NCBI GenBank assembly: GCA_026770025.1
Contig: JAMXDE010000047.1
Coordinates: 248,001 to 312,000, forward strand
Reading direction: 5' to 3'
Source of the DNA: Craspedostauros australis
Taxonomy: Eukaryota; Bacillariophyta; Bacillariophyceae; Mastogloiales; Achnanthaceae
DNA length: 64,000 bases
Of this stretch, positions 8,648 through 58,285 are shown piece by piece. Positions within the stretch are counted from its first letter, which is position 1, and each line of letters begins with the position of its first letter. The translations under genes were made by a program, and so were the position numbers. Below the pieces are notes generated by a model. It was not told the origin of the DNA, did no database searches, and saw only the letters and a list, made by a program, of their open reading frames with translations.

Positions 8648-8832
8648 TCTGTCTCCAAGTCAGAGCAGGAGGCGAAGATCCGATGACCAAAGGACATCGA
8701 GATCATGGATACAGAAGGTGAAGTTCAAATGGTAAGTACTCATGAAGTAGGAGCCAGTAGTGAACGAACGGAGTATCGAATGCAGAGTAAGCATCGAACA
8801 TGAAACATGGTGTAGCACGAGCACACGATATT

Positions 8833-8858
8833 GAGAGAGAGAGAGAGAGAGAGAGAGA
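8833..8858. repeat. (GA)13 microsatellite
   Basis: Thirteen uninterrupted GA dinucleotides, followed by further GA-rich sequence to about 8880. Confidence 0.95.
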
Positions 8859-9066
8859 ATACAGAGAGGAGCGAGAGAGCATCTCGCGCACCGACTCATA
8901 GTTGGAGACCGAATCTACGAGACAGATTGAAGCGCCAAGAGCATCGGGCAAGAGAACAGACACCGAGAGGATCGGAGTGCCAATGTAATGAAATAGCAAA
9001 CAGAACAACAATCAACCAACACCATCTTCCACGATCGTAGGCTTCCAATCATGGAACTTGCCAACC

Positions 9067-10732: not shown

Positions 10733-12658
10733 ATGCCGCCAAAAAAGAATAAAAAGTTCGTGAGTCTCGGCGGTGGTAGAGCCGTTCTCGAGGAGATCAA
10801 AGAGAAGGAAGAGGATGACAGCGATGATGAGGAGGATATCCAACAACAGCTCAGCGATGCGGAGAAGAAGGAGGCCAAAGTAAGAGTGCAACTCGACGAA
10901 AGCATCAAGGCAGCCCAAGACATGGTGGAGAAATGTAAGTTGGACACAGCCAAAACCCTACCTTCCGAACTACTTTCTCAATGCAACACTGAGATCAGCA
11001 ATTGCAATGATCAACTCGACAATGCCACCAAATCCCGCGAGGAACTTGCCGCAAAGTTGCGTCGATGCCGACTGAAGCGTCGCAGGAGGGAATCCAATAT
11101 CAAGGACGTGCTGGGCAAACTCGATGCTGTGGAGAACGAAATCGATCTGGTGTTCATCATGGACGCTACTGGTTCAATGGGGCCATACATCGACGGTGCC
11201 AAGCAGACCATCCGCAAGATTGTCGAGAAGATCAAGGCTGATGGAAAGGGGAAGGATCTACGGTTGGGGTTCGTGGCCTACCGAGATATTGACGATGGAT
11301 CTGATCGATATCAAGTCCTTGATTTCGTGGATGACGTCAGTGTCTTCGAACGCTTCCTGGAGGGAGTTAAGTCCACTGGCGGCGATGACGAGCCAGAAGA
11401 CATAGCGGTTGGCATCCAAAAGGCCAATGAGCTCTCCTGGATGCACCCCACCAGAGTGGTCTTCATCGTTGGTGATGAAGCATGTCATGGAACCGAATTC
11501 CACGACCACGGTAAGTCTGGCGACAACTACCCGACCGGCACTCCAGGCATCAACATCGTCTCGGAGCTGTCCAAACTCAGGACCAATCCAAGGGGTGGAA
11601 CCATGAACGTCTTCTTTGGTCGCATCACCAAGAAAACAGACAAGATGATTGAGCGGTTTGCGTCCGTCCACAACATTGATCTCGAAGTTGTGGACTTCTC
11701 TTCTCCCGAAATGGTTGAGAAAGTCGTGGTCAAGAGCGTCCGCCACTCTGTCTTCAACTCAGTGTCGTTGATCGACTCTCAGGGCAAGTCAGTGGAGTAC
11801 GAAGCAGACGGAGGCAAGATGAAGAAGGCCAAGATGAAACCATACACAATCTCCAAAGATTTCCCAACGCAATTTGGATGGAAAGGAACGGTGCCTGTCA
11901 ACATGTATTGCAACACCCGCAACATCTCCGTCCAGTCTTTACGAACGCCTCTCTCGGTCAACAAGTTGGCCGAGACCTACACTTCTTGGTTCTCTTTCGC
12001 GAAACGCGTCAACCTCAAGTTCTGGCTCCAACTGGCGAAATCCCCGTTTGCCGAGGGGTCATGCCGCATTGCATTCCATGCAAGGCTGGCGCGTCACAAC
12101 TCCGAACTCAACCTTGACAAGAGCGCCATGGTGCTCAAGACCAACAAGCACCATGGGCCAAGAATCAACGATAGACAACGATACTTCCAACAGATGGAGG
12201 TATCATCCATCGCGTGCTTCCTTGCCAACGAATACAACAAGTCAGCCTACCGTCCTTCGCACTGTGCCATGATCAGGGTTCTGCAAGCGTGCGTGGTGGA
12301 GGAGGTCAGCGACAGAAATGAAGCAGCCGGAAACCGTTTCTACTGCGGTGAAGACGTGCTGCCAACCACTGGAACACCATTCACCAAGTACTGCAGCAAC
12401 ACGGGAGCCTGGCATCCCGATCACATCGATGAGTCACTCCTTCGCTTCGTGGAGTTTTCGTACGTCTTCTCCAAGGAGTACTTGATTGTGGCGGATCTTC
12501 AAGGTGTCAAGGCCAATGGCAAGTACTACTTGACCGACCCTGCGATCTTGTGCACCGACATGAGACGCTTCGGCTGCACCAATATGTGTACACCGGGAAT
12601 CGTGCGTCACTTGGCATCAGTTCAAGACAAGCTCAAGATGTTCAAGACGAAGGAGTGA
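10733..12658 (+). CDS. von Willebrand A domain / alpha-kinase protein
   Basis: Single-exon, 641 residues. Residues 1-130 are charged and probably coiled (Lys/Glu-rich). A vWA domain follows, starting LVFIMDATGSMG (MIDAS-type D-x-T-G-S near residue 144) with TGGDDEPEDIAVGI and VVFIVGDEACHG further on. From about residue 420 the sequence matches the atypical alpha-kinase fold: FAEGSCRIAFHARL, then SSIACFLANEYNK, then IVADLQGVKANGKYYLTDPA, then FGCTNMCTPGI. Domain order is that of Dictyostelium VwkA-type kinases, which phosphorylate Thr in helical substrates such as myosin tails. The usual C-terminal zinc-binding His/Cys cluster of alpha-kinases is not visible; the chain ends soon after the glycine-loop-like motif. 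Cytosolic, no signal peptide. Substrate unknown; kinase activity plausible but untested. Confidence 0.88.
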   Translation: MPPKKNKKFVSLGGGRAVLEEIKEKEEDDSDDEEDIQQQLSDAEKKEAKVRVQLDESIKAAQDMVEKCKLDTAKTLPSELLSQCNTEISNCNDQLDNATKSREELAAKLRRCRLKRRRRESNIKDVLGKLDAVENEIDLVFIMDATGSMGPYIDGAKQTIRKIVEKIKADGKGKDLRLGFVAYRDIDDGSDRYQVLDFVDDVSVFERFLEGVKSTGGDDEPEDIAVGIQKANELSWMHPTRVVFIVGDEACHGTEFHDHGKSGDNYPTGTPGINIVSELSKLRTNPRGGTMNVFFGRITKKTDKMIERFASVHNIDLEVVDFSSPEMVEKVVVKSVRHSVFNSVSLIDSQGKSVEYEADGGKMKKAKMKPYTISKDFPTQFGWKGTVPVNMYCNTRNISVQSLRTPLSVNKLAETYTSWFSFAKRVNLKFWLQLAKSPFAEGSCRIAFHARLARHNSELNLDKSAMVLKTNKHHGPRINDRQRYFQQMEVSSIACFLANEYNKSAYRPSHCAMIRVLQACVVEEVSDRNEAAGNRFYCGEDVLPTTGTPFTKYCSNTGAWHPDHIDESLLRFVEFSYVFSKEYLIVADLQGVKANGKYYLTDPAILCTDMRRFGCTNMCTPGIVRHLASVQDKLKMFKTKE

Positions 12659-13982: not shown

Positions 13983-14584
13983 CGTGTCAAAGTGGAGTAC
14001 TGGTACTATACTGCGATGTTTGTGTATGGCACGAGTGTTGGGGAGAGAATTGATGCTGGCGTGTTGGCGTAGACAACTCCAGAGAGTAGGGTGGTTGTGC
14101 GCCTTTGGAGGTCTCGCTGTGTTTCGTACTGTCGCTCCTGCTTCCGTCCATGGATGCTGCCAAGGCCCTTGTCCATGATGGCTACAAGCTATTCCGATTG
14201 CTTTCTCTGTCCTCTGTTGTGAATGGTCGCCATTGAAGATCGCTGTTGATGTCATCCTCCCTTCCTTGTTTGTGACAATCCGAAAGTCACCAAAACAGAG
14301 AGAGAGGACAACATGTCGAAATGACTCCATGTCATTTGAGAAACAACATCGCATGCATGACTAAAATTACCCGACTAGCGTGTCGGGAATCGATGTACAA
14401 CATTGTTGTGATAAACGCCATTGCCGTATATCCCAATAAAAGCACCGCGACTCGATAGATCCAATGATGGTTGATCACACTCGGACCACCTTGTAGCTTG
14501 TCCCACTGGAGGCAACCATTGGTGTCTCACGTCACACCCAGCCATGTCCCACAACAGAGTCTGTCCCTGGTCCATCATGATACA
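13983..14584. other. Upstream region of the thioredoxin-fold gene
   Basis: A minus-strand frame continues through here upstream of ATG 13982 but has no domain signal and is taken as 5' untranslated or promoter sequence. No other gene seen. Confidence 0.5.
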
Positions 14585-14689
14585 CCCACTTGAGTGATGG
14601 GACCTGCAGTCAGTCCTGGGGGCGCTGGCAACGTACGGGGATTTCGACCAAATCACTCACAAATTCATAAACTAGATAAAATTATAAGA
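14585..14689 (+). repeat. Left terminal inverted repeat
   Basis: It begins CCCACTTGAGTGATGGGACC and continues inward through TCCTGGGG, GGCAAC and AACTAGATAAAA. It pairs with the reverse complement of 15908-16011 with scattered mismatches and small gaps. Confidence 0.82.
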
Positions 14690-14863
14690 TACTCTTAGGA
14701 CCTCGATTTTATCCTAAGTCTTTATGTTAATTTTATGGACCCCTCGATTTGTGCTCATCTAGACATGACTAGCGCACTATGGCCAGATTCAGTGTCTTGG
14801 TGCCTTCGCTGATATTGCCAAAAGCAGACTTTCCAATGTCAATTTCAGTCTGAATCCAATTTT

Positions 14864-15049
14864 TTATTCCCGCATCGCAGCTCTGGCTCTTTGCTGCAAT
14901 TGTGTCCTCACATTTTGTTCCACCATCTCAGGAGATTCCGTGTTTTCCTTCATCGTTTGTGTCTCGCACGCAAATCGCTCCAATGTTTTGTTTTCTTCTT
15001 GTTGCAGCGTGATTTCCTCCTCTTCTGCTGTTGTCTGTTGTGGAGGCAC
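14864..15049 (-). pseudogene. C-terminal remnant of DDE-like transposon protein
   Basis: A Glu/Gln-rich 61-residue frame ending shortly after ETQTMKENTES, which matches DAHTMKANTES at the C-terminus of the protein ending at 57092; both are preceded by EEE-rich helices. The frame opens with GTG, not ATG, and is out of frame with the N-terminal remnant by one base, with only about 10 bases between them, so the two were probably one short internally deleted frame. Confidence 0.65.
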
Positions 15050-15059
15050 GATCTCCGTG

Positions 15060-15425
15060 TCAGCGCTGTTTGCGTTCGTCGGTGGCTGGGTGATTGTTGT
15101 GTTCGTTGTGTTTGTTGCGTTTTTGTTGGAGTGTCCGATTCCAGCCGTCGGTGGTTAGGATTTCAATGTCACACCCGTCGTCGAAAGTTGCGCCTTTGAG
15201 TGCAGGAGTCAAGAGCTTGTCTGTTGTAGATGTCAGATTGTGCTGCTTACCATCCATATCCAATGGAGGCAACAACTTCTCAGAAGGAAATGGCGTGGAC
15301 AGTTCCTTGCAATCAATTGGGTCCAATAGAAAGGGGCGCATGGATTGAGAGGATGGCAAACGTTGCTTCTTGGAGGGGGAAGGATTGGCATCCTTGGACG
15401 CAGCTTTCGAGGTAGAGACGAGCAT
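15060..15425 (-). pseudogene. N-terminal remnant of DDE-like transposon protein
   Basis: From ATG 15425 the 121-residue frame starts with SKAASKDANPSPSKK, matching DKAHPKDANPSPSKK at the start of the protein encoded from 53575. A second shared patch is NLTSTTDKLL against NLLPTTEQLL. The frame then stops at 15060. The catalytic region is absent. A longer in-frame start at 15638 adds a hydrophobic Cys/Leu-rich segment without counterpart in the relative, so 15425 is chosen. Confidence 0.7.
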
Positions 15426-15691
15426 GATGCTGATTGATACTGAAGGGTAGATGGAGAAGACTACTAGTGATGGAAGTGAACTGAGCAAGAGGAGTGCAAG
15501 AAGGTGATGATACAAACACTGCATGAACATGCAACAAGCACAGCACACCACCGAAGAGAAGCAAAGGTTGATTCTGTGCCGAAATGTGAGGAGATTTGCG
15601 ACGTGACGAAAGCCAAATTTGAATTTGAACGTTAACATTAACGTCTAATAACGGTTAGTGGCGAAGAGAGTGTCTTCGGACAGGTCAAACG

Positions 15692-15874
15692 ATGACGTCG
15701 CTGAAACGCCAAATTCCGTGCGCAACCTGTCAAAAATCGTTCAATCCCGAACGTGTCTGCGCACATTGTGTTGTTTGCGATGGAAAATCTAATCAATGCC
15801 GAGCGATCATCACGGAGCAGCGTGCATATTCGACCAAGAGGACCGTAAATCTACAAAGGTCCATAAAAAAATAA
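15692..15874 (+). CDS. Small Cys-rich ORF inside the non-autonomous element
   Basis: A 60-residue frame on the strand opposite to the transposase remnants, with six cysteines spaced C-x2-C-x10-C-x2-C-x2-C-x6-C (CATCQKSF, then CAHCVVC). Such spacing could bind zinc, but the frame is short, has no relative elsewhere in the window and may be chance. Confidence 0.2.
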   Translation: MTSLKRQIPCATCQKSFNPERVCAHCVVCDGKSNQCRAIITEQRAYSTKRTVNLQRSIKK

Positions 15875-15907
15875 GCCATTAAAGCAAAATCGGGCGTCCA
15901 CTGTGAT

Positions 15908-16011
15908 TCTTGTATTTTTATCTAGTTGATTATTATGTGGGTGGCTTGGTTGAAAGCCTCGTAAGTTGCCACTACCCCAGGACCGACTGCAGGTCTCGTC
16001 ACTCAAGTGGG
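15908..16011 (-). repeat. Right terminal inverted repeat
   Basis: Its reverse complement begins CCCACTTGAGTGACGAGACC and follows the left repeat block by block to AACTAGATAAAA. Confidence 0.82.
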
Positions 16012-16299
16012 TCCTATGCTGCGCGTACGACTACCATACTCCACCATACTTACTACTACGCACGCATAATAGCAGTATTCGTACGATTGATACTTCTGTT
16101 CCACAAAATGAAAGAGCAAGAGAACAGTTGGAGCATCGCACATCATGCCAAAACGTAATAAGAGTAGAGTGCTCCGACTACGGACTGTTCTTAGCGCCAC
16201 TCTCTCGATGCTGCATTGGGAGGAACGTTGCTTCATCTACTCACGCGTCAATCCGCATGACCGCAGACCCAACCAAGCAAACCATATTGGTGCAACAAC

Positions 16300-17604
16300 T
16301 CACACGACCTTGAGCTTGCGGTTGGACCACCCGTAGGCACCCTTATGCGTCTCGAAGACGTTGACAAACTCGGCCACCATCTTGGCATGATGATCATCGA
16401 TCTCCTGCTGCGTCGGCTCGGCGATCTGCGGACATTGCACGGGATTGCCGAGACAGATGGCGAGCGGAACGCGCGGAGGCGGACCCAAGAACCACCCCCA
16501 CCGACCGATGAAGGGTGTGACGGCCGTGTCCAACGCGAGGCTGAGCTTGCGCAGGATGCCGAAGGGGTCGACGACGGCCTGGTACATGGCCGTGTGGCCG
16601 AAACCGTAGACGGGTATGATGGGCACGCCGGCCTTGAGGGCGATCTTGACGATGCCTTTGCGCTCCTTGAGGCAGGCGATCTCCTCGATGACGCCGGGCT
16701 CCGCGGACGAGGAGGCGTTGGAATGGAACATGCCGGCGATGCCGTCCAGAATGACGCCGACATTCTCCTCCTTCTTCTGCAAGGTGTCGAGGATGGACCT
16801 GGACTTGGCGGGGATGTAACCCATCTTGCGCAGCAGGAATCCGACGACGGGTAGCTTGAGCACGACGGGCGCGCAGGTCCAGTGGCACAGGCGGTCGTTC
16901 CACACCTTGGACCAGAGGGGGTAGGATGTGATGCCCATGGGGATGATGCCGTGCGGCACGGCGCAGAAGATGACGGGGCGGTTGCCCAGCGCCGGGTAGT
17001 GGATGGACTTGGGCCAGACGTACTTGGTGGAGTGGTACTTGCCGCTGTGGAACTCCGTGTAGACGTACTGGTTGTCCTTGATGTCGTTGGAGAGGATGGT
17101 CGGGCGCTTGTAGACCTTCTTGAAGTAAGGCTCGAAGTAGAAGGTCTCGATGGCAAAGAGCAGGGCCGTGTAGACGATGACGAAGGCGAGGCAGCACCTG
17201 GCCACGGTGGCGGCCATCGACGCGGCAGGCAGCAGGACGAAGGAGGCCAGCAACAGCATGGGCAGCAGGAAGGGCATGACGTTGCTGATCATGTAGAGCG
17301 CCACTCCCACCACGCGCTCCCATTCTACGTGCGGCGGGATTTGAGATATCTGGCCGAGGGCGTTTGGTGGGAAGCCGTTCTTTCCGGCGGTCGCGCTGCT
17401 GCTGGCCAAGGGAGAGCCGTCTTCCGCGGTCAGGTTGAGAGCGCGGAACCAGGCATCGATGGGGGTCTTGGATCGGAAGAGCTCATTGGGAAGGCTGCCG
17501 TATTCCAGCTTGAAGTACTCCACGTCCTCGCTGCTCGCGTTGCCGTGCAGTGCTTGCGCCACACCGTCTGTGGCCCCTTGTCCTTCCATTTCTTTCGGCG
17601 GCAT
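16300..17604 (-). CDS. DGAT2-family acyltransferase (diacylglycerol O-acyltransferase-like)
   Basis: 434 residues, intronless. The type 2 diacylglycerol acyltransferases add acyl-CoA to diacylglycerol at the endoplasmic reticulum, the last step of triacylglycerol synthesis; monoacylglycerol and wax-ester relatives share the fold. A long hydrophobic pair of segments (about 98-150) precedes the catalytic part. Family landmarks in order: FCAVPHGIIPMG (about 216), GVILDGIAGMF (about 287), RKGIVKIALKAGVPIIPVYG (about 315), FIGRWGWF, then PTQQEIDDHHAKMV near the C-terminus. The usual His-Pro-His-Gly block reads Val-Pro-His-Gly, losing the first His, and the GGA(x)E-type loop reads DGIAGMF. Diatoms have several diverged DGAT2 paralogs, so substrate is uncertain though family membership is clear. 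Confidence 0.92.
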   Translation of the reverse strand: MPPKEMEGQGATDGVAQALHGNASSEDVEYFKLEYGSLPNELFRSKTPIDAWFRALNLTAEDGSPLASSSATAGKNGFPPNALGQISQIPPHVEWERVVGVALYMISNVMPFLLPMLLLASFVLLPAASMAATVARCCLAFVIVYTALLFAIETFYFEPYFKKVYKRPTILSNDIKDNQYVYTEFHSGKYHSTKYVWPKSIHYPALGNRPVIFCAVPHGIIPMGITSYPLWSKVWNDRLCHWTCAPVVLKLPVVGFLLRKMGYIPAKSRSILDTLQKKEENVGVILDGIAGMFHSNASSSAEPGVIEEIACLKERKGIVKIALKAGVPIIPVYGFGHTAMYQAVVDPFGILRKLSLALDTAVTPFIGRWGWFLGPPPRVPLAICLGNPVQCPQIAEPTQQEIDDHHAKMVAEFVNVFETHKGAYGWSNRKLKVV

Positions 17605-41640: not shown

Positions 41641-43578
41641 TCAAACCTCGTCATCGCCGAGACTGCTGGAGGCGGACTTGGAGGACCGAAAGCGCGGCAA
41701 CATGAACCGATTGGGCGAACGCGAATGCGACGAGACGGACGACGTGGATTGCCTCGGTGGAAGCGCCGGACGCGTATCGGACTGTTCCGGCAGCTGCATC
41801 ATCGATGCCTCTTGCTTGGGCACATGCTTCTTGGGCGCTGTGATTGTGACCGTGAATGGTCTGTGTTGCGGCGCGGCTTGCTTGTCGACCCTGAGGATAT
41901 CGTGTTCGAGGCGTCTAAGGACGGTCGCGAAGGATGGCCGGCGGAATGGATTCTCCCGCCAGCAATCGATGAGGAGCAGCTGCAATTTCTTGCTGCCGAC
42001 AAAGGTGAGGGAAGGGCGGTGCTTCCGGTAGCCGACGGATCTTTCAAAGTCCTCCGGGCTGGAACAGTCGAGGAATGGCACGTTGAGCGTGATGAGCTCC
42101 CACAGGACGATGGCGAACGAGTAGATGTCGCAGGCGCAGTAGTACTGGGCATAAACGTCATCTATGGCGTCATCGGCGACAGGTTCCGAGAGCATGTTGA
42201 TCCACATGTTTGGATCGTCCTGCCGTATGAGCTCCGGCGCCATGTAGCGCCACGATCCGGCGATCTCCGGTTCGGGCAGATCCTGCAACTGGCGCACCGT
42301 CCGGGCGAGACCAAAGTCCAGCAGACGGACGTGGAGCCTGTTGCTGCGTCGCAGGAAGCCGATGTTCTCCGGCTTGAGGTCGCGGTAGACGAGGTGCTTC
42401 TGGGAATGCAGGTACTCCATGGCCTTGAGGATGGGTATGGCGATGGTGCGGAGGCGCTGGTGGACGCTGCGCTTGGAGAGCAGGGAGGTGGATGCCACGC
42501 TGCTGCTCATGCCGCTGAGGATGGAGGAGAACTTCCACGATCGCGTCTGCTGCTGCTGCTGTGACGGGGAGGTGCCGAGACTGTTGGCGTCCTCGGCGAT
42601 GGTGGTTGGCGCTGACGTATCGTAGGCATCGTATATTTGCAAGCGCTGCGAGATGCCGTTGTATCCGTCGCAGTAGTAGTCCTCGTCGTAGCTATCGAAT
42701 CCCTGCTCCTGCTGCTTCCACATGCGGAACTGCTCCAGCAATGTTCGTTCCAACTTTGGCAGGATGAGGAAGAAGCCGTTGCCGGCGCCTTGAACGTAGG
42801 ACTGCGATAGCTTGGCCATGTATCTCTTGTTGTTGACATGTTGTGACTGTTGTTTCTGTGCATTCGCGAGTGAATGCGAATGAGCAGATGAGACGGGCGT
42901 CTCCTCGGCTTCCTCTGAGTCTTCCCGCACATCATCGGCAGCGCAGACACCCAGCAGGGCGATGATGTTCTCATGATGGATCTGCCGCAGCCAATGCGCC
43001 TCAAGGAAGAGGTCATGAGCCGCGGCAATGAGATCACGATTGGACTTGATGTTCTTGGACTTGAGACATTTGCAGGCGTAGTTGACAGTGGGCAGCAGGT
43101 GCTGCGGCAGATGATGCTGCGCGGGTTGGTGCGTCGAGGTTGGCGCAGCATCCATTTTCTCCGACAACGGGGCGTGCGCCGAGGAGGGGGTCTGCCTCTG
43201 CTCTCGCTTCTGTAGCTGTGACTGTAGCTGTGACTGCTGCTGCTGCGAGGACGGCGCCGAAGCCTCCGGCGACTTGCCAGGATTGTGCTTGACATTGAGC
43301 ACGTACGCAAAGCCTCCCTGGCCAAGCACGGTCTGGATCTCTAGCTCCTCCCAATCCACGAAGGCGAGCGACCGCGCGGACTCCGTATTCGGCAGCTGCG
43401 GCAGATCGTGGTACACAAGGTCCATCTTCTGCAGCACGGACGGCGAGAGGTACTTCCTGAAGACGAGGCCATCGTAGGGGACGCTCTTCTCGTGGTCGTT
43501 GCCGACATCCGCAGCAGACATTGCGGCAGGCGTGGCAGCAGATGTGACAGCAGGCGTGGAGGAGGGGCTCATGCTCAT
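41641..43578 (-). CDS. Protein kinase with interrupted N-lobe and YRD catalytic loop
   Basis: 645 residues from ATG 43578; the open frame extends to 43866 but only by a TTG start. Glycine loop LGQGGFAYVLNV, then a Gln-rich insertion of about 70 residues before the ATP-binding Lys in NYACKCLKSKN, then a second large insertion between LLGVC and the hinge (FFLILPKLERTLLEQF) and a third ahead of the catalytic lobe. The catalytic loop reads LVYRDLKPENIGF (Tyr for the usual His of HRD), followed by LLDFGLAR, SWRYMAPELI, and ACDIYSFAIVLWELITLNVP. Landmarks of the C-lobe are those of tyrosine-kinase-like Ser/Thr kinases. All catalytic residues (Lys, Asp of RD, Asn, Asp of DFG) are present, so it is probably active. 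Disordered tails at both ends; no receptor domain or membrane segment. Confidence 0.9.
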   Translation of the reverse strand: MSMSPSSTPAVTSAATPAAMSAADVGNDHEKSVPYDGLVFRKYLSPSVLQKMDLVYHDLPQLPNTESARSLAFVDWEELEIQTVLGQGGFAYVLNVKHNPGKSPEASAPSSQQQQSQLQSQLQKREQRQTPSSAHAPLSEKMDAAPTSTHQPAQHHLPQHLLPTVNYACKCLKSKNIKSNRDLIAAAHDLFLEAHWLRQIHHENIIALLGVCAADDVREDSEEAEETPVSSAHSHSLANAQKQQSQHVNNKRYMAKLSQSYVQGAGNGFFLILPKLERTLLEQFRMWKQQEQGFDSYDEDYYCDGYNGISQRLQIYDAYDTSAPTTIAEDANSLGTSPSQQQQQTRSWKFSSILSGMSSSVASTSLLSKRSVHQRLRTIAIPILKAMEYLHSQKHLVYRDLKPENIGFLRRSNRLHVRLLDFGLARTVRQLQDLPEPEIAGSWRYMAPELIRQDDPNMWINMLSEPVADDAIDDVYAQYYCACDIYSFAIVLWELITLNVPFLDCSSPEDFERSVGYRKHRPSLTFVGSKKLQLLLIDCWRENPFRRPSFATVLRRLEHDILRVDKQAAPQHRPFTVTITAPKKHVPKQEASMMQLPEQSDTRPALPPRQSTSSVSSHSRSPNRFMLPRFRSSKSASSSLGDDEV

Positions 43579-44722
43579 TCGAGCTGTTGTCTGAGCTTCG
43601 ATAATGCCGCTTGTGGTGCTGCTTGTGGCGTTGGACGGTGGACGATGCCGTCTGGCTCTGCCTTTTGGCTTGCTCTGTGCGTCCTTTCCGTCTCTATTCA
43701 GCGTTGTCCCACGCTGGGTTGCCGTGCTCTGCGTTGTGTTGGTTAGCTCGCGTACGACTACAATTGGAGTGGTATTCCTCGTGTGCCTTGCTTTCCTTGC
43801 TTTGCCTGGATGTGTCGAATGTATCGAATGCAGTGGCGCGCAGAAAGTCAGCACTTGAGAGCACAAGACCCTGCTGGACGATTCCGGTGCGCGGTTCTTC
43901 GTGCCACAGTTGTGACCAAGCGCGGAAAGTTCGCTTGGCCTTCTCCGGTGCTGTCTCTCCTCTCTGCTTTCTCGTCTCGTGCGTTGTTGTGTCTCCGTGC
44001 CACCTTGTTAGGCAGAGCTTCTCCTCTCCAAGTCCTCTCTCTGTCTCTGTCTCTGCCTCTGCCTTTCTCTCTTCTCGCGATGTGTGGACAATTGAGACAG
44101 GAACACGAGCTGAGAAAAGCAAGCGCAATAGGACCTGCAGCACAAGAGTATCAGTATGGGTCGCCGCAGAGTGAGGAACACAAGCAGGACGAGCACCTCG
44201 TATGGAGGATAATAGAATAGATCGTACACGTATAATAATACTATTATGGTGGAGGAACAGGGTCTGCACCAGCCCTTGGAACAGGCGCTGTGACAGCCAA
44301 ACCCTCCTCTGTTTCTCAGTGTGTCTGAGACGCTGCATCCGGCAACGCTGGCCGTGCTTTTGTGTCCTTCATGTCGTCCACCTTCGTTGTCTTGTCCGAC
44401 CACTTCGTCGTGTCACCGGTGCACAACACACAACCAACCAATACGCGAGACAACAAACAGCCATCGCGATGGGCGAAGCTCAATTGGGTCGTTGTTGTCG
44501 TTGTTGTCGTTCGTGACGTGGAATCAACCAATCAAAGACCCTGGGGTGGACGCCACGATATGGGGTGACGTCACACACGAGATATCTCGCATAGTAGCCA
44601 CCCGAGTGAGTCGACCACTCGTTTGAAACAGGCATTCTAACTGTTCATCTTCGATATCCAAACCAAGCACATATTCGTAATCCTTATAATCTTCTTACAA
44701 ATAACTAACCGATCGATTTTTG
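43579..44722. other. Divergent region between the kinase and PS-repeat genes
   Basis: About 1.1 kb between opposite-facing genes; contains CT-rich tracts (44030-44080), a GTTGTC tract (44490-44512) and the dispersed repeat at 44601-44699 immediately before the PS-repeat gene. Confidence 0.55.
44601..44699. repeat. Dispersed repeat R2, copy 1
   Basis: GTGAGTCGACCACTCGTTTG and, 70 bp on, AAGCACATATTCGTAATCCT match in order and spacing with 52902-53007. Probably the end of an LTR or other element; the copy ends at TTACA, 23 bases before the next gene's first ATG. Confidence 0.7.
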
Positions 44723-46971
44723 ATGTACGACTATGACACGAGGTTCATCATGCCGTATGCGCTCGATGAAGACTTGGATGTCAACGATCCGTGCCCAAAC
44801 GACTCGAAGGGCGAGCGCTCGCAACGTGCAGCTGTCTTCGCCGACTGTCGCAAATGCTTCGCGACAGTGCAGGGAGTTGGACAAGCATGCGATCCATCAG
44901 CTGATGTTGATGATACGGTCGTCGTGAACAACAGTAAGTTGAGGTCTTGGCATGACTCACCATACCATACAATTGCATGTCCTCCACGCTCTGCTTTGAA
45001 TGCTTCGGTTCACTGCAGGGTCAGCATCGCTATTCTATCCTCTATTTCTCTTCTTACCCTTACCCTGCCCTCCCTTTCCTCTCCTCTCCTTTCCATTGCC
45101 ATCATGTCTCTTCCGTTCTCTCGTTTTCGTCCCGCAACCCGCATCCAACACTGGGCCGTCAACATGACTTGCTTGCTACTCCATTGCATGGACCTGGACG
45201 TTCCATCTTTCACGAGTACTCAGGCGACTCAGTTTGCGTCATGTCATTCGATGCCCCCAGCCATCGTTTCCTTGAAACCAAGCTTCCGACCAACCTCCTC
45301 GTGTACCATCAGAATCCGCATTCCGTGAGCGGCACAACGTCCGTCACCTTGTCCACCCTGCACACGTCCTGCAGCGAGCCCATCTACCCGCCGTATTCAG
45401 TTCGACTGGGAACGTGCCGTGACGATCCCAATTACATCGTGACATCCTCCATTGCCTCGCAGCAGCACGTGGGCACGTACTTCGTCTTCGAAGACGCCAT
45501 GAGCGCCAAATGGCCTGGGTCGCTTCTCACCGACTGCGACAACAATGCCAGCGACGATGCTGGCGACGATACTGACGATGAATCCGAATGCTGTGATGGC
45601 GGCGCCACGTTCTTGCGCCTCCGCTTGAGCGGGGCGGAGGCATCCGGGTTTCTCTCGCTGGATCCGGCTGATGTCGATGGCATCTCACCATGTCTTGGCC
45701 AAGATGCAATTCGCACAGGTCAGCAGCATGCGGTTCGATTCGTTCCATGTGATGACGATGGCGTGGATCTATCTTTCTCCAATCTTGGGGTGGGGATAGC
45801 TTGCGCGACTTCGTACGACACCATGCATGTCGCGGATGGCGACGAGATCTGCTTGGGATCCTGGGACGATGAACGCAATCGGCTTGACCTTCATCAGAAG
45901 ATGCCAACTGATCTTCCTCTGTACTTCGTCCCAGCTTCCGGTGGTTCCAATGTGCAAGTGCGCGTTGCGAACATCCATACAAGCTGCAGCCACCCTCTCG
46001 ATGTCGGCTTTGCACAGCCCATGGTTGACCCATGCACAGCGACCGTGGAACAGCCCGTTGTTGAAGAAGACCCAAGTAAATACGACGGACCTCGCCTGTC
46101 GTTCTTGGACGGCGTGAGCAGATCATGGACCAACGCTGCATTGGAGGTTGGAGTCAACGCGTCAATCTACGACGTTTCATTCGCAGGCTGTGGATGCGAG
46201 TGCCATCGCGATGACACGATCATGCCTTCAGATATGCCAACTGTGGTTCCCGCACAGCCGTCCCAGGTTCCATCACGTTCTCTGTCCGGTGGTCCGTCCA
46301 TGATTCCGTCCAATGACCCTTCTGTGGTTCCGTCCAGCCGTCCGTCCGAAGCCCCAACTCGTGGCCCATCCCGGCTCCCGTCGCAAGCTCCGACTCAGGC
46401 TCCTTCTCGAACTCCGTCATACCATCCATCTCGTACGCCATCGCAGGCACCCTCCCGGGCTCCGTCGCAAGTCCCGACTTGGGATCCTTCCCAGGCTCCG
46501 TCGCGAAATCCATCACAGGATCCATCACAGGAGCCCTCGCAAAGCCCATCCAGCCCTCCATCTCGTGCACCATCTCGCGAACCATCGCAGGATCCATCGT
46601 CCCCGCCGTCATTCACCCTGACTGAGGCTCGAGCAACAGAACAGCCCGGGTCGCTTCAACCCTCAACGAGCAATTGCTCATCTGGTTGCGACATGTGGGT
46701 GCTGGACAATTGCATCGTTCGTGACGATTTTCTCGAGGCTGGCCTTCCGTGCAACGTCACTGCTCAATTCACTCCGATCGTCGGCAGTGATGGCGGTGAC
46801 GCCCTGGAAGATCTTGATTTTGGCATTCGTCACCGAAAGCTCTTTCACCAACTGAAGACTTCTGTGTTCTTGGACGATGATGCAGTGCACGGCATGAATA
46901 TCCAAGAGAAGGCTCAGTACCACGTTGTAATGGCGACCATGTACACAGATCTTTTGAATCTCATTGGATGA
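44723..46971 (+). CDS. PSxxPS-repeat protein with duplicated HTSCS domain
   Basis: Two exons proposed: 44723-44933 and 45224-46971, with a GTAAGT...CAG intron (44934-45223) whose CT-rich tract precedes the acceptor; the phases fit and give 652 residues. Two related domains follow: one with DSVCVMSFD, KLPTNLLVYH and LHTSCSEPI, the second with DEICLGSWD, KMPTDLPLYF and IHTSCSHPL. They share a Cys framework seen in diatom secreted or cell-surface proteins. About residues 406-534 are PSxxPS repeats (PSQAPTQAPSRTPSYHPSRT), a common stramenopile wall or adhesion linker, then a last Cys-containing domain. No signal peptide is visible, odd for such a protein; a repeat lies right upstream, so the original 5' end may be lost or the true first exon missed. 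Confidence 0.72.
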
Positions 46972-49104: not shown

Positions 49105-49680
49105 ATGGCTGGTGATGCAATGCGCTGTGTCGCTGTCCTCGTGTTTCTGGTGTGTGCTGCAACGCGCCTTTCAACTCAACTGCAGCCTCCATCAACACAG
49201 CACACACCATCCTACAATCACTGTACTCTTCACCTTGCAAGCATGCTGCACGCTGGTGACCGTGTGAAGGTGGCACCCCACCAGCGATCAGGTGACAAGG
49301 TCCGCGACCTGGGCATATGTCATGTTGAGTTTGCAATGAAGCTGACTGCTGAAGGCGCTACGATCAAACGCGATGGGCCTCTTGCACCAGGAGAGGTGGC
49401 AATGGTCATGGTGACCCCAGTGATGGGGCACAGCCGAATGTACGTTGTTCGTGAGGATCTATGCGCGCCACACAGCCTCGCTACCTTCGCGCGGACTCGC
49501 AACGCTGGCGCCCTTCCTCAGCCTTCCCTTCTTTCTCCACAGCATCGCTCTGTCGCTGCCGCGCGTGCCAACAACAAGGCTAAGCCCCCCACACCATCCC
49601 CAACTACCATGGAATCGCAAGAAGCCAAAATCGCTGCTTTTCTGGAGGTCTCACTGTTGGAAATCCGGGGTTATAGTTAA
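49105..49680 (+). CDS. Hypothetical ORF cut by an LTR-like sequence
   Basis: 191 codons with a hydrophobic start (MRCVAVLVFLVCAATRLS) and a VKVAPHQRSGDKVRDLG segment, no domain recognised. The last residues are encoded by the LTR-like sequence that begins at 49655, so any real gene is truncated here. A CT-rich tract ending CCACAG at about 49541 could be an intron acceptor leading to ATG 49610. Coding status is doubtful. Confidence 0.25.
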   Translation: MAGDAMRCVAVLVFLVCAATRLSTQLQPPSTQHTPSYNHCTLHLASMLHAGDRVKVAPHQRSGDKVRDLGICHVEFAMKLTAEGATIKRDGPLAPGEVAMVMVTPVMGHSRMYVVREDLCAPHSLATFARTRNAGALPQPSLLSPQHRSVAAARANNKAKPPTPSPTTMESQEAKIAAFLEVSLLEIRGYS

Positions 49681-49737
49681 TACTAAATTCTAATCTGCTG
49701 TTAGAAACTGTACCGTTTTAGAACTGTGATCACAATC
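49655..49737 (-). repeat. LTR-like terminus, inverted relative of 58205-58285
   Basis: TGTTGGAAATCCGGGGTTA opens this block and about 80 bp match the reverse complement of the sequence that precedes element D, including TGTTAGA, GTAC and AGAACTGTGA in order. Most likely the end of an LTR of the element D family in minus orientation; an alternative is discussed under findings. Confidence 0.6.
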
Positions 49738-50319
49738 TCACTTTCTCTTCCGTTTTTGTTTTCTTGGCAGGCATCTGTCGCGGTAACGACACGGGGCGTC
49801 CTGTTGTCTCTTAGGTGCTTCCCCCTTCATTCATCATGCTCTGTTCTTGCTTCCTTGTCTCTGCACTGTCGTAGCTGTCTACGTTTGCATGGTAGGGATC
49901 TGCAGTCCTGAGCACTTGCCTGTCTCATGTTTCCTTCGTTGATCCTCATGACACCATCGTCTCATAGCCGATGTCACCTTTGGTGACGTTCCAAACCTGT
50001 GGATGTTCTGATCCTTTCTGATGTTCCAAACCTGCGGATGTTCTTGTCCGCAGGAGGGGCGCGTGCTGTCCTCTGAAGAAGGTGCGTCACTTGCCCATGG
50101 ACATGCTGTTCTGATCGACGTCGTCGTCTGGATGGTTGCCATGGTTGGCGTGGTATCGGGACCTCCTGATCCGCCATGGGTGTCGTCCTTATGTTACCAG
50201 AGGACAGACTACCCTCCTCGCGGTTATACAGGTATCAATCGCGTCCGTATGCTTAGTCATAGTCATAATGACATGGTATACAAAGATGTGACAAATAGTC
50301 TCCGAACAAGCGACGAATA
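49738..50319. other. Region between LTR-like terminus and mariner ORF
   Basis: Possibly the rest of a solo LTR. 49988-50044 has two copies, period 35, of GTTCCAAACCTG(T/C)GGATGTTCT. No gene seen. Confidence 0.5.
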
Positions 50320-52296
50320 ATGTTCAAAGCTGTGACGAACAATGTTGGGAGGTGCGGCAATTACGGGTATTCCAACAAAGTCGTACCCTCAATTCCTAAC
50401 ATCTCACGTCAACAGAAAGAAACGGCAATCGCCCGTCTCAAGAAGCAGATGAAGAGAGGTGCAACAACGAAAGGATGGTTGCGAAAGGATGGAAGGTGTA
50501 GCAACACTAAGCCCACCAATAGCAAGAAACAACTTGATGCGCAAGAAAAGCACAACTACATCGTTCTCTACTTCAATTTGGGTGGGATCCCAGCCAATGC
50601 AAAATTGATCGCCCATGCTTGGGATATTGGCACTTCTACTGTTGCCAGCAACATCCGAAAGTTCCAACAGAACAACTTCGAACGGAAGAAGCACAGCGAC
50701 ACAGGCAGGAACATCTTCACCAGCACCCACAAACAACAACAATGCTTCACGCCACGTGCTGCCTTCGCTAAGCAGTTGAGGCTGAAACATCCACAACAAC
50801 GGTTGACGTCTGACAACATCTCATCTGCATTTGCTTCTGCTTTGCCTGAGGAGCTGGCATCTGCAAAAGCTCTGTCCGATTTGTGGTTGGAGCGCAGTCC
50901 ATTCCTCCAATATGACCTCCAGGATGTGATGCGACAATGCGGTGGCGCACTCTCATGGGACGATATTGCACGAGAAGTAGCAGGAAGGGGCAATGTCCAA
51001 TGTGTTAGCGCAGAGACCATTCGAACGTACGTGATGGGATTGGAGGGCAGCGAGTACTGTTCTACAACAATGCTCCCTCTGATCAACGGCACCACGAAGA
51101 TGAAGCACGAGATCTGGGCCAAGGACTTCTGTGTGTTCTGGGAATCAGCGCAGCTGTTCCCGAATACGCAAGTTGTTGTTGTCCACATGGACGAGAAGTG
51201 GTTCTACTCCATTGTCGCTCGGAAGAATCTCAAACATGTGCCCCAGATGGGAATTAAGCCTATCGACCACGCTGTGCACCACAAGTGCCACATTGAAAAG
51301 ACCATGGCGATTGCATCAACAGCATTCGCCCCAACAGACAACTGTATTGCGCAAGGAGGAAAGGCGTATCAGGTCAGCTTTGAACGTGTTGGGCGCATGG
51401 TCCCAGTGCAGAAGAATACGTACAAGCGAACTTGGGTCTCGCCAACCAAGTACAAGCTCCTTCCAGATCCCACCAAAATCTCTCATGTGAAGGGTGAACT
51501 GTACTTTCAACCACTGGAGATCACGGGCAGCAAGGAATCAGTTGGTGCGCCTGATAAGCCCAAGCCGAAGTACAGCCTCAAGAAATTCTTCCGCGAAAAA
51601 GAAATCCCCGCACTGGATTCGCTCGCCAGCAAAATCAAGGCCGAAACGGGCAAGAACGTGGTGATTCGGTACCAGATGGATGGCGCAGGGCCACACAGAG
51701 ACACGGAACTACTCAGGTTCATCAATGAGGAGTTCGACAGTCGCGGATGGCACCTACGATTTCAACCATCAAATTCTCCCATCACGAATGTGAAAGACGA
51801 TGCGATATTCCCAGCGATGTCGAAACATGTGTCAGTACATCAAGGTAAGCACTGCAGTAGTCGCATGTTCACCACTGATGCGTTGTGGGACGCTTGCAAA
51901 ACCTGTTGGGAGCAATTTGGGCTGGACAAGGTTGCTCGCGCGTATGTTCGCCACCATCAGATCGCCTACGCAATTTGTGCTGCGAAAGGAGGTGACGAAT
52001 TTGTGACGGAGCGCAAGGGTCTCAGCATGAATGTGCGGAAACAAACGTTCACTGAAACTGACAAGGACGGCAACGAGATCGGCGTTACTGTGTGTCACAC
52101 GGACTTTGCATTGGAGGAGGAGGAGGCAACCAACACGACCACCAAGAAACCAACTGCAACAGGCAAGAAAGACAAATGTCGAGATGTACATGTGAGTATA
52201 TGTCGAGATGTACGCGTATATGTGCATCGTTCACCCGTTATTCTCTCATACACACTTGGACGGTGTAACTACATTCGTGTCAATAGTATGCTGTGA
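50320..52296 (+). CDS. Mariner-type (DD39D-like) transposase with LTR-derived C-terminus
   Basis: 658 codons, of which the last 39 (from 52177) are encoded by an inserted LTR copy, so the native end is lost. An N-terminal helix-turn-helix region (WDIGTSTVASNIRKFQ) and a second one (LSWDDIAREVAGRGNVQCVS) precede the catalytic core. First Asp in VVHMDEKWFY; second in QMDGAGPHRD; third in QPSNSPITNVKDDAIF, 38-39 residues later. HMDEKWFY and QPxNSPxxNVxD are hallmarks of plant and stramenopile mariners (Osmar/Stowaway-type, cut-and-paste into TA). Catalytic residues are intact. The terminal inverted repeats were not found. With its 3' end overwritten, this copy is probably immobile, though the core could still be made. 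Confidence 0.86.
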   Translation: MFKAVTNNVGRCGNYGYSNKVVPSIPNISRQQKETAIARLKKQMKRGATTKGWLRKDGRCSNTKPTNSKKQLDAQEKHNYIVLYFNLGGIPANAKLIAHAWDIGTSTVASNIRKFQQNNFERKKHSDTGRNIFTSTHKQQQCFTPRAAFAKQLRLKHPQQRLTSDNISSAFASALPEELASAKALSDLWLERSPFLQYDLQDVMRQCGGALSWDDIAREVAGRGNVQCVSAETIRTYVMGLEGSEYCSTTMLPLINGTTKMKHEIWAKDFCVFWESAQLFPNTQVVVVHMDEKWFYSIVARKNLKHVPQMGIKPIDHAVHHKCHIEKTMAIASTAFAPTDNCIAQGGKAYQVSFERVGRMVPVQKNTYKRTWVSPTKYKLLPDPTKISHVKGELYFQPLEITGSKESVGAPDKPKPKYSLKKFFREKEIPALDSLASKIKAETGKNVVIRYQMDGAGPHRDTELLRFINEEFDSRGWHLRFQPSNSPITNVKDDAIFPAMSKHVSVHQGKHCSSRMFTTDALWDACKTCWEQFGLDKVARAYVRHHQIAYAICAAKGGDEFVTERKGLSMNVRKQTFTETDKDGNEIGVTVCHTDFALEEEEATNTTTKKPTATGKKDKCRDVHVSICRDVRVYVHRSPVILSYTLGRCNYIRVNSML

Positions 52297-52545
52297 TTCG
52301 TCAGAATTACAGTGGAAATGGAACACATGAAAAGGGGCAAGATTTCTGGAGGAAATTTGCAAATAACGATTTCTGGGAGAATTAGAAGATCGTCCGTCCA
52401 TCCATCAATGGTACCAAGAGAATCTCGAGGCACTTCCCAACTAAACCTCAGATGACGATATCATCTGACAAGCTACTGCATCACCAATGGAACATGGCAT
52501 CTGGAGAGCAGAAGGACGCCTACTGATGTCGACAGGATGTCATCG
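52177..52545 (+). repeat. Second copy of the element C LTR (solo or truncated)
   Basis: It starts TGTCGAGATGTACATGTGAG and matches 8259-8630 at most positions, including GATTTCTGGAGGAAATTTGC. No polypurine tract or pol gene precedes it: the upstream neighbour is mariner coding sequence, so this is an independent insertion. Confidence 0.88.
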
Positions 52546-52901
52546 TGTCTATCAACATCTAGATCGAAATTAGGTACCCATCTCCCATGACTGAAACGTG
52601 ATTCACTATTTTTTGATTCGACTCGATTTGAGAGTATAGTCGAGTGAGTCTTGATACACGATTGATATTCGGTCACTACGGTCATCGAACATGACGTAGG
52701 CACTGACATCATCGTATGACGTCAGAGGATCGGTCATTGTGATCCTCGGAATCGAGATTTTGTTTTAGTCATGGTACGCTGACCTGTCTAGCCATGCCGA
52801 GTGCATCATCGAGCACGTGGCAACAATACTTAGGATCCAGAACAACATCGTCAGGGGTGATGCATGCACCCCGTCGACGTAGACGGATCAATCCATATGA
52901 G

Positions 52902-53007
52902 CCCGATCAGTGAGTCGACCAATCGTTTGAAATGAAGAGTCTAATCGGATTTCTGGGATTTTCAAACTAAGCACATATTCGCAATCCTTGTAGTCTCTTT
53001 ATGTACA
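52902..53007. repeat. Dispersed repeat R2, copy 2
   Basis: GTGAGTCGACCAATCGTTTG and AAGCACATATTCGCAATCCT match 44601-44699. The copy ends TATGTACA. With the LTR start at 52177 it could form one 831-bp TG...CA unit, but the element C LTR at 8259 has no such end. Confidence 0.7.
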
Positions 53008-53574: not shown

Positions 53575-56500
53575 ATGTTTCTCTCTGCTGCTGACAAGGC
53601 CCATCCCAAGGATGCCAACCCCTCCCCCAGTAAGAAGCCACGTTCTGCTCACCCTGCATCTGCTCACCCTGTGCCTGCTCCTCCTGCCAACTCCAAGGGA
53701 AACTTGCTCCCTACCACGGAGCAACTGTTGCCTGACAAGCCATCCGCTACGTTGAGGAAGCCAAGCACCATCACACGAGTGATTGATGTGAAGCCGATGT
53801 CTGCAGCGGATGGCGGCCTCGTCCCGAACGGTACGCATGCGCACGCTCGTGAGCTGCATGTGTTCGTCCACATCCTAGACAGCAACGGAGGCGTCTTTGA
53901 CGACTCCCATGTCGAGGTGCGTTCGGAGGGACGAGGTGTTGGCGATGGAACAGTGGTGAGCGTTTTCGTGAACGCGCCACCCCCGCCTGCTGCACCTGAC
54001 GTTGCACCACCTGTCGAGCCTACCCCGCCAGCTAGGCTTCCCCGCCAATGCAATACGATTGTTGCTGGCCGCTACGCAGACACCTCCAATGATAGCGACA
54101 GCACGTACATTGACGAGGAGGAAAAACAGACGCGCGCCAGCTGGGGCAGGAGGGGCGGCAAGTTTGAGTGTGACCCGACAGAGGAGGGCAGCTGGAGGCG
54201 TGATGCGATCGTTCGTGTGATGGCGGAGCTTGGATCTAACCTAGATTCAAAACTGTTGCAACTCATGCCAAAGAAAGGGTTCGTTCTCACAGGCAGACAC
54301 GATCGGACCATCTGGAGCTACATCAAACAGGTGTGGAGTGTCGCATCGTGTGCACTTTGGAGTGTCCTGCTTCCAGAAGAGGGCGTGCCAACTTGTCAGA
54401 TGGAACAGGTGGTTGCATACGTACGCGGCAATGTGGAACTTCCTCCAACGATGTTGGCATCTAACCTCTACACTGTGGGCTTGCTCGGAGAAACTACATC
54501 ATCCCGCACAGTTAGAGCTGCTCTGGCCATGTCTGCACCACATGCACTGTGTACTGCTATCCTGGGTAGGCATGCACAAGGATTGTCGGAGGAACAGAAC
54601 GCCTGCATGCTTCCCAAACGCGACATCATCACGCAAAGCCAGGCAAGCACCTTGCGTCGCTACTTCGACAAGTTGAGTCACGGCGAAATCGTACCTGCGC
54701 GAGTTCTTCAGTACCGTGTGGGTGCCTGCAATCTCTCTGGTGTGGTGTCCTTCCTCATGAACACGACTACGTACAAGGCAGGGTTGAGTCACACGGTAAA
54801 GTATGGTGGTGTCCAATTTGACAATGTCCCGGTGTTCGATCGTGGAAGCACCACCATCCGAGACTTATTCGGCATGTACTCGTCAACGACTAACAACCCA
54901 GTGGGAAGGCCCGCCTTCACCACCATTACTAACCTACTCACACGCAAAAGCAAGATCAAGACAGGCCTCTCTTCCTTTGAGAGTTACTTCTGGATGGCGA
55001 CGGAGAAACTGAAACAGGCAATTTCGCGCCTAGTAGAGCTACTCAAGGCTAAGTATGAAGCAGACGGGGAGGAGGAAAACGATGATGCTGTGGATGCCAA
55101 TGACGAAAGCTACCACAACAATGATGATCCCAGTGATGTCATCGCACAGCATGAACGCACAGCCGATTCCCTGTTGCATGCGCTTGGACTGATTGTTGTG
55201 TTCCTCAAATGGGAATTCACCGCCTCCCACATGCAGCTTCAGTGTGACGATCCAATGCACTCGGCCGCGTTCGCTCTCACTGCCAACAAGGAGAAGAAGA
55301 AGGGAACAACCACATCAACCAATCAACGCAAACCACGCACCAACAAGCACAAGCGCAAGAAGAACACTCTCACAAATGACATTCCTGTGGTCATGACAAA
55401 CGAACAACCACGTAAAGTATGCAACCGTTGTGGCGCAGCAATGCGATTTGTGAATGATCGTTTTGTCCCTTTTGTCAAAATGCTTAAGGACAACGAACTC
55501 GCAGAACACAAGGACGAATTGCAATCAATGCTTGCGGCGGCGCCGGGATTCGCCAACGAAATTGTTAACTACATGGCTCACAAAGTGCGTGCAAAAGTGC
55601 AATTCGGACAAATCGCCTTTTATCAATCCCAGCTCAATGAAAAGCCTGAAAGAGCCTATGTGGTACTTGACCATAAGCAAAAAATTCTACCGACAGGCCA
55701 AGGCGAAGCCCAACAAGAATATTGGGGGGAAAAGGGAATGTCACTGCTTGGGGCGATGGTCATCACGTGTCGCAACAACATTTTTACTTATCGGTTCATC
55801 GACATTGTGGTCGATGGAAGGCCGACTCAAGACACACTTCAAGTTGGTGGACTACTTGACATCGTGCAACAAAAGGTCAAGACATTTACCCATCCGTGAC
55901 TGAAATCATCCTACAGAGCGATAACGCGTGTTGTTTTGCCAGTCACGAGCACATCGCGCTCATCACGTCCAAACTGAACAAGAACCTCAGGCAACGAAAC
56001 GCGGCCAAAATCATCGCGTGGATTTACACGGAGGCCCAAACTGGTAAGAGCATGCTGGACACCCACTTCGCGTACATCACCCGTGTACTGCGAAAATACG
56101 TGCAAAGTGGACGCGACATCAAGACCCCGTTCCAAGTCTTCCTCGCGCTCCAAGCCGGCAGCATCGTGGGGACAACCACGGTACTTGCCAACGCGGCGCT
56201 CCTGGCAGGCAACATCACCACGTTGCCTGGCGCACCAAAAAGACGATTCCGTGCAAGTGGACAACAGGTACGTCAAACTCACGAGGTGAAGTATGACGAT
56301 GACCAGGTGCGGTTGGTGGCTGCATCTGGCATCACCGAAGACGTCGTGGTGAAGAGCACCGAATGGGAGGGCTGGAGTATCAACGAGTTGGGTGTCATCG
56401 CGGACAAAACATTCACGTCCGACAAGCCGGCAATTACGTCCGAATCATTCAGGAAGACGGACAAGACGCGCAAAATGGGGCGTACAGCAACAGAGAGCAA

Positions 56501-57092
56501 GGCGTTCGCGATCGGCAAAGCCCTCCAAGACGGACAACGACACCTACCGTCCGATCACACCACAGCGTTCCAAGACCAGACAGCAGGAACAAAACACCCA
56601 CCACTCGCGGTAAAAGGCTGGGCAAGCAAAACAGCACGGACCAACGCCAAACTACCAGACTACATCGCGGCGAAATTGAAGGACATCTGCAAAGCGTCCG
56701 CGAAGGATCCGAAAAACAGACCATCCGAACACGAAGCACACGAGCAATTGATGGGCGACGAAAGAACCAAAACTGACTGGTACGTACAACTGCACGCAAA
56801 TCCCATGCGCGTGAAAGCGTCGCTGTTTGCAGCGTACAGTGCCAAGCAACGCAAACAAAACCAGGAGGCTGTGCTCACCAAGACAGAAACCAACACAACA
56901 AACAAAGCAACAGCAGCATCCGCAATTGTGGCAATCCACAATGCACCAGCGAAAACAGAGGAAGAGCAGAGAGAAGAGGAGTTGCAGAGAGAAGAAGAGC
57001 AATTGGAGAATCAGAGGTGGTGTGATGCTCACACCATGAAGGCGAACACAGAAAGTGAGGCTGTGTTGGATGATGAGACGGAAATTTTGTGA
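53575..57092 (+). pseudogene. Uncharacterised DDE-like transposase/integrase, one frameshift
   Basis: ATG 53575 starts a frame ending at TGA 55897-55899; the next frame (from GTG 55896) runs to 57092, together about 1170 residues. N-terminus: KDANPSPSKK, then Pro-rich and acidic disordered parts, a helical middle, a Lys/Arg-rich stretch (KHKRKKN), and one VCNRCGAAM pair. The probable RNase-H-like core spans the frame break: Asp in YVVLDHKQK (about residue 699), GEKGMSLLGAM, then in the second frame Asp in IILQSDNACCF and Glu in WIYTEAQTGKSMLDTHFA. I recall this combination (DHKQK, QSDNA, TEAQTGK-LDTHF) from many unannotated stramenopile and animal repeat proteins, without an assigned superfamily. 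Break: one base is missing near 55895 relative to a continuous frame; no canonical slippery heptamer is seen, so mutation is likelier than programmed frameshifting. C-terminus Glu-rich, ending near DAHTMKANTES. Confidence 0.7.
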
Positions 57093-58204
57093 TGGCTGTG
57101 CGTCACCGCAATAGAGAATTCTCGCAGCCCGATTTCGGAGTCCCGCGGAGGAATCATAACCAGATAGAGACATTTTGTGTGGGGTCGCCCCAAAAAACGA
57201 AATCGGAATCCGGTTTCAAATGGGCTCTCGGAACCGGGATAATCAATTCTTCCCGATTTCGTCGAGTCCCGCGAAAAGGTCTTTCAAGTTTAGATCTTTC
57301 GTAACTGACCAATCACATGCTTCTTTCGTTGCAGAGTGTGTTCTTCTGTCCAGAAGTAAGTTTCCTTGTGACAACCTCCTCGTTTCCCTTTTGTTGGCGG
57401 AGAGATCTGGAACGTGTGTTTTTTCTCTATCGTGTGAAGCTGTGTCCGTTGCCTGCTTAACACATGCTCCCTGCGAATCTCCACGCAACACAGGAATACT
57501 CCTTTTCTCAACGCATCGTGGCCATGTGCACGGTGTTGCGCCATACTTCCGGTTCTTCGCCTCTTCCGCCACCCACTGCGTTGGTCACTGAATCGCATGC
57601 CATGTGTCAGGAATCGAGGGTACGACTCTGTCGGAAAGATACCCATGATTGCCGCAACTCCCAACATTATTTGTCACACCTTTGGATATTATTCGTCACA
57701 CCTTTGAATATTACCCATTCCAACCACGACACGAATCACACGGGAATGACCTCAGTCTTACCAAGAAAACAAGCCTGTCCTCTGTGAATCAAGAAAAGGC
57801 CACGATATCTAAATCAGGTGAAGGAAGATGATGACCGACACATTGATGATCACCCCATCTGGAGATCATGGCACGTGTCAGCCAGGGACTAGAACAACTC
57901 AGAAAGGGCATCATCCATGACACCAATCATGACACCAATCGTAAAGTTCGGTGTCAGGAGATCAAGAGCGAAACGCAAGACTGTGGAATCGTACCACAGG
58001 GAATGTAGAATAAGGATATGCACGACGAGGCGCATGACAAGAATGCCTACGGATATGCACGACGATGTGCATGACAAGGACGCCTACGGATGAGATCTCA
58101 TGCATGCAAGCGTTGATTCATGATGATGAGATGCATGAACGCAACAGTCTAACACGATGCTGCTGCAGGAGATGCTACATGAGAAACGAAAGGCAAAGGA
58201 GCTG
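57093..58204. other. Spacer and presumed 5' LTR body of element D
   Basis: No gene. 57655-57715 has repeated TTCGTCACACCTTTGAATATT-like blocks; 58014-58087 is a 37-bp tandem repeat. The right part is probably LTR sequence of element D but its start was not located. Confidence 0.5.
58014..58087. repeat. 37-bp tandem repeat
   Basis: Two adjacent copies starting GGATATGCACGACGA, both with GCATGACAAG and GCCTACGG, differing at a few bases; CATGACACCAAT is also doubled just upstream at 57916-57940. Direct repeats of this kind are frequent in LTR promoters (inference). Confidence 0.85.
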
Positions 58205-58285
58205 AAGAGAATGAACTCACAGTTCTGAATAGTACGATCTAACAACCAATTAGTTCTTACTAACACTAACCCCGGATTTCCAACA
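58205..58285 (+). repeat. 3' end of the 5' LTR of element D
   Basis: The block ends CCCCGGATTTCCAACA, a typical CA-ending copia LTR terminus, 79 bases before the gag ATG. It matches the reverse complement of 49655-49737. The LTR start is not resolved. Confidence 0.6.

Follow-up and report, generated by a model that had tools for sequence, protein, structure and literature searches.

What kind of gene lies at 53575-57092 of this 64,000-nucleotide stretch of Craspedostauros australis DNA (the window, C45:248001-312000 of the host genome), and does it belong to a mobile element? An earlier note had proposed a transposase of about 1170 residues there, encoded by an autonomous transposon with a non-autonomous relative in the same window. 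Comparison with the host genome leads us to conclude, with a probability of roughly 0.85, that the window holds a decayed copy of an autonomous cut-and-paste transposon, here called family 1. The complete element measures 6.0 kb, carries 88-bp terminal inverted repeats (TIRs) and one transposase gene of about 1,170 amino acids with a probable RNase H-like core, inserts at NTAN, and most likely belongs to the Sola superfamily or near it.

The motifs LDHKQK, QSDNACCF and TEAQTGKSMLDTHF were all found where the earlier note had put them within 53575-57092. They do not share one frame of about 1170 residues, as had been stated: frame 1 stays open over 53575-55896 until a stop codon (55897-55899), and the rest of the gene lies in another frame. 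The parts of the window copy are as follows.

52895..52898, + strand: left copy of the 4-bp target-site duplication (TSD), ATAT, placed by the boundary across copies and the NTAN rule
52899..52986, + strand: left TIR, 88 bp, beginning GAGCCCGATCAGTGAGTCGACC
53575..55896, + strand: first open part of the transposase gene, residues 1-774 in this frame
55896..57092, + strand: rest of the gene, read in a different frame owing to a frameshift in the window copy; unbroken homologues exist elsewhere
57113, + strand: end of the element in the window copy, which lacks the right TIR and about 1.8 kb of the 3' part

In alignments, homology to the window starts at 52886-52909 in all 29 other copies (in L028 through an inverted piece) and stops at 57095-57113 in 28 of them (at 56658 in L025). 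The other copies run on beyond 57113; the window copy is therefore truncated, and the right ATAT was lost together with the right end.

To assess the gene across the host genome, 74.8 Mb in 90 contigs were searched. In this genome, 61 matches to the light-harvesting family PF00504 point to a photosynthetic alga. With the first part of the gene as query, at least 58 long copies were scored from 425 candidates (the window copy included), with identities of 81-98%, the window itself aside. In 43 of the 58, the open frame, counted with its upstream extension, reaches 1150 codons or more and the aligned part is free of stops, so that the protein of about 1170 residues, absent as a single frame from the window, stands unbroken elsewhere. 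A second query, the 167-amino-acid core, yielded at least 150 scored copies from 371 candidates, 89-100% identical. The gene is under purifying selection: 16 unbroken copies out of 30 loci gave 120 pairs, and in the 110 whose dS exceeded 0.1 the median ratio of nonsynonymous to synonymous divergence (dN/dS) was 0.25. Relative to one reference copy, 27 of the 35 indels in the gene (eight copies) were multiples of three; of the 67 in the 3' part (ten copies, ends included), 5 were. These counts are not independent because related copies share indels. The 1.8-kb 3' part does not look coding-like, and a second gene there is unsupported, given that only 5 of 67 indels are multiples of three. Two of the 16 proteins, those of L013 (C15) and L014 (C39), are identical and have different left flanks, which suggests recent movement.

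A complete copy, C35:410867-416885, spans 6,019 bp, with 88-bp TIRs that are 94% identical and the duplication ATAA/ATAA; the termini of the family read GA...TC. The left terminus was read in 28 of the 29 other copies, the exception being the rearranged L028. Ten further right flanks were also inspected: seven had an intact end, and all seven carried the 4 bp of the left side, while L031 stopped short, L032 had an altered end and L038 was without a visible end. The 22-base terminus matched the genome 86 times in forward and 81 times in reverse orientation with at most two mismatches (167 in total), compared with 0 matches for its reversed control, which is more than chance would give.

From about 100 of these 167 matches, those listed, 29 converging TIR pairs were taken, with a spacing of about 6 kb in 22 and of 11-15 kb in 7. 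The 4-bp flanks were identical in 26 of the 29 pairs, with T and A central in all 26, and did not match in the remaining 3; in a mismatched-pairing control the flanks agreed in 74 of 812. Among the 26, the duplications were TTAA (5), TTAT (4), ATAT (4), CTAT (3), TTAG (3), GTAT (2), ATAA (2), ATAC (2) and CTAG (1). At C9:1067394-1073450, the flanks joined with one 4-bp copy agree with an uninterrupted stretch of family sequence in 55 of 56 positions; judging from this junction, the element is nested in a copy of its own family and its empty site is visible. For the other 28 joined flanks, no uninterrupted site was found in the sequence searched, and two separate searches with joined flanks likewise turned up none. 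A larger autonomous form behind the 11- to 15-kb pairs was rejected for C33:553110-567149, the one read fully, which is the 6-kb element with a Copia long terminal repeat (LTR) retrotransposon inside and the duplication CTAG; the other seven long pairs were read at their ends only. Within this transposon copy (L049/L050, C33:553000-567300) lies a 2,080-codon open frame resembling a Copia polyprotein. TIRs, a conserved gene, the NTAN duplication and a high copy number are established here, and the proposal that the gene encodes the transposase of an autonomous TIR transposon was supported.

Two further pieces of the window belong to this group of elements.

14584..16012, no strand assigned: non-autonomous member of sister family 2, 1.43 kb long and internally deleted; the termini are inverted, and the 4 bp on its two sides differ from each other
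44590..44727, + strand: left-end fragment of family 1

The inverted termini of the 14584-16012 element resemble the family 1 TIR, and its blocks 1-538 and 544-1429 match both family 2 ends at 79-84% identity. Only transposase residues ~1-105 and 1123-1192 are kept, so the element derives from family 2 by internal deletion and has lost the catalytic core. The non-autonomous TIR relative anticipated in the window thus exists, and the idea of an autonomous/non-autonomous pair was right in kind, except that the smaller member belongs to a sister family and not to family 1. Its terminus pattern matched the genome 36 times forward and 43 times in reverse (control, 0), some of the two-mismatch matches belonging to family 1. 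Four stretches between family 2 ends were read (4,443, 4,865, 4,593 and 5,976 bp); the open frames of L114 and L113 comprise 1,222 and 1,075 codons, and both L115 and L116 are broken. By tblastn, the L114 protein shares 44% identity with that of family 1 over 1211 positions; in the alignment the figure is 47%. Family 3 came from weaker matches of the genome search, from which three stretches were fetched. Its complete copy is 4,566 bp long with 161-bp TIRs, the duplication ATAC/ATAC (one of one pair) and a transposase with 58% identity; in L117 no paired TIRs were found, and only part of L119 was read. GTGAnnnGACC near the terminus is common to all three families, and both sister families (transposases 44-58% identical) follow the same duplication rule, family 2 flanks agreeing as NTAN in 6 of 10 pairs.

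The predicted catalytic core was then placed on the protein. RNase H-like transposases have the order strand 1-2-3, helix, strand 4, helix, strand 5, helix, with acidic residues at strand 1, strand 4 and the last helix, the third acid usually lying where the helix that follows strand 5 begins. A low-confidence AlphaFold model of the core, to which the structural positions given here refer, has strand-strand-strand-helix-strand-helix-strand-helix. D699, D783, E820 and D829 are invariant across three families in a four-protein alignment.

55243..55431, + strand: possible zinc-binding site ahead of the core, C557/H562/C616/C619, invariant in the same four proteins of three families
55669..55671, + strand: D699, candidate first catalytic aspartate, at the end of strand 1
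55920..55922, + strand: D783, candidate second catalytic aspartate, directly after strand 4
56031..56033, + strand: E820, the third acid in the earlier note, in the loop after strand 5
56058..56060, + strand: D829, preferred third catalytic acid in GKxxxD, second residue of the helix after strand 5

In this low-confidence model the strands and helices follow the RNase H order, and D699 and D783 stand where they would be expected; the transposase probably has the RNase H-like core proposed at the outset, an RNase H fold being indicated by the model. Fold comparison of the model lists Argonautes, retroviral integrase cores and reverse-transcriptase chains; none of the 50 rows listed was described as a cut-and-paste transposase, which excludes nothing. 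C557, H562, C616 and C619 may form a zinc-binding site.

The D, D, E order that had been proposed stood in part: both aspartates and the glutamate are present and invariant, and the glutamate is doubtful as the third acid. A DDE enzyme that uses E820 is favored by the invariance of this residue in all three families and by its position only nine residues from D829. Nevertheless, the model puts E820 in the loop that joins strand 5 to the following helix, whereas D829 lies at the start of that helix, the usual place of the third acid; we regard E820 as the less probable choice and D829 as more likely. We infer that catalysis, excision and end binding are carried out by this protein. The transposase would bind the terminal repeats, its RNase H-like core (D699, D783 and probably D829) would excise the element, and joining to the target with a 4-bp stagger around TA would leave the NTAN duplications.

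To which superfamily might the three families belong? The Sola superfamily (Sola1, Sola2 and Sola3) was reportedly described by Bao et al. in 2009. Sola is compared here by its published traits. Sola elements are described as having a DDD triad, a 4-bp TSD, a length mostly of 2-9 kb and TIRs of 11-1124 bp (PMC10741241). These traits agree with the 4-bp NTAN duplication in 26 of 29 pairs and with the size and variable TIRs of family 1 (6,019 bp, 88 bp) and family 3 (4,566 bp, 161 bp); the acidic residues in the low-confidence model could fit DDD, with E820 and D829 both invariant. Bivalve Sola1 elements average 5,445 bp (PMC10294476), and Sola-1 is present in the brown alga Ectocarpus (PMC12477816). 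The TSDs differ: those of Sola2 are AT-rich, AWWT and also ATAT, AAAT and ATTT (PMC3627910), whereas those observed here are NTAN and include CTAG, GTAT and ATAC. Unassigned viral elements with TTAN have also been described (PMC3627910).

Kolobok, piggyBac and Tc1/mariner are excluded by the duplication. Kolobok and piggyBac share a 4-bp duplication with the present elements, and Kolobok termini, 5'-RR...YY-3', are like the GA...TC found here, but both insert specifically at TTAA (PMC9587614), which accounts for only 5 of our 26 duplications. The C/DxxH that Kolobok has between the second D and the last acid (PMC9587614) was not found on reading the alignment over residues 783-829. Tc1/mariner elements likewise have TA at the target, but duplicate only these 2 bp, whereas here 4 bp, outer bases included, are identical in 26 of 29 pairs.

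Alternatively, this transposon could stand for a separate superfamily that has no sequence relationship to Sola or to any other group with a name. The three families would then define a new eukaryotic DDE/D superfamily, whose marks would be a transposase of about 1,200 amino acids bearing D...QSDN...GKxxxDTHF, termini with the core GTGAnnnGACC, and insertion that always occurs at NTAN. In favor are the presence of three families within a single genome and a strict NTAN target, which the passages surveyed do not state for a named superfamily. Searches of Pfam, NCBIfam, PHROGs and PDB sequences also gave no significant match, only chance-level ones (best E value, 0.076), although the libraries searched contain few eukaryotic transposases and none is a collection of eukaryotic transposons. 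A phage search with 433 amino acids of the protein gave no significant match. Scans by two short peptide patterns each, which could miss distant relatives, matched 86, 76 and 69 stretches in IMG/VR and 22 and 285 in GTDB contigs, and none was confirmed. Against a separate superfamily stand the published size, TIR variability and 4-bp TSD of Sola (PMC10741241); since these fit our measurements, a new superfamily is not established, and we consider one unlikely; the earlier note's suggestion of an undescribed family is likewise unproven. We class the element as a cut-and-paste DDE/D transposon that is probably Sola-like; most likely it belongs to an algal lineage within the Sola superfamily or near it.

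The surroundings of the window copy are themselves layered. Inverted repeats at 50277-50401 and 57605-57697, about 7 kb apart, enclose a 658-amino-acid open reading frame (ORF) at 50320-52296, whose motifs MDEKWFY and NSPITN we take to be mariner-like; it has no Pfam match. That the gene at 53575-57092 is cargo of this larger element, with the 658-amino-acid ORF as its transposase, is very improbable, because, although the outer repeats enclose both genes, the homology of the other copies begins at 52886-52909 and none further left, those copies have their own TIRs and TSDs, and 0 of 29 copies have both genes between outer repeats (in a comparison reaching at most 1.5 kb upstream of the gene); a composite of gene and outer TIRs was rejected on the same boundaries. 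The 53575-57092 element instead looks nested inside the outer one.

Further out, inverted ends TGTTGGAA...TTCCAACA at 49655-49682 and 58258-58285 may mark both ends of a single Copia LTR that the nested insertions have divided, and a frame that reads as Copia gag-like begins at 58365. The stretches 8259-9065 and 52177-52549 match a sequence that flanks the Copia element of C33 on both sides, and may be solo or partial LTRs. Elsewhere in the window are an ORF at 10733-12658 with von Willebrand A and alpha-kinase domains (PF02816, E value 6.3e-29), a diacylglycerol acyltransferase-like ORF at 16300-17604 (- strand; PF03982) and a protein kinase ORF at 41641-43866 (- strand; PF00069).

Taken together, the family looks like a new branch of a known transposon type rather than a wholly new kind. 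With many unbroken copies, clean ends and some identical proteins at separate places, the family is a good candidate for recent transposition in a photosynthetic alga. Should it prove to be Sola, it would provide an abundant, apparently recent example for a little-studied superfamily; if it is not, one superfamily would be added.
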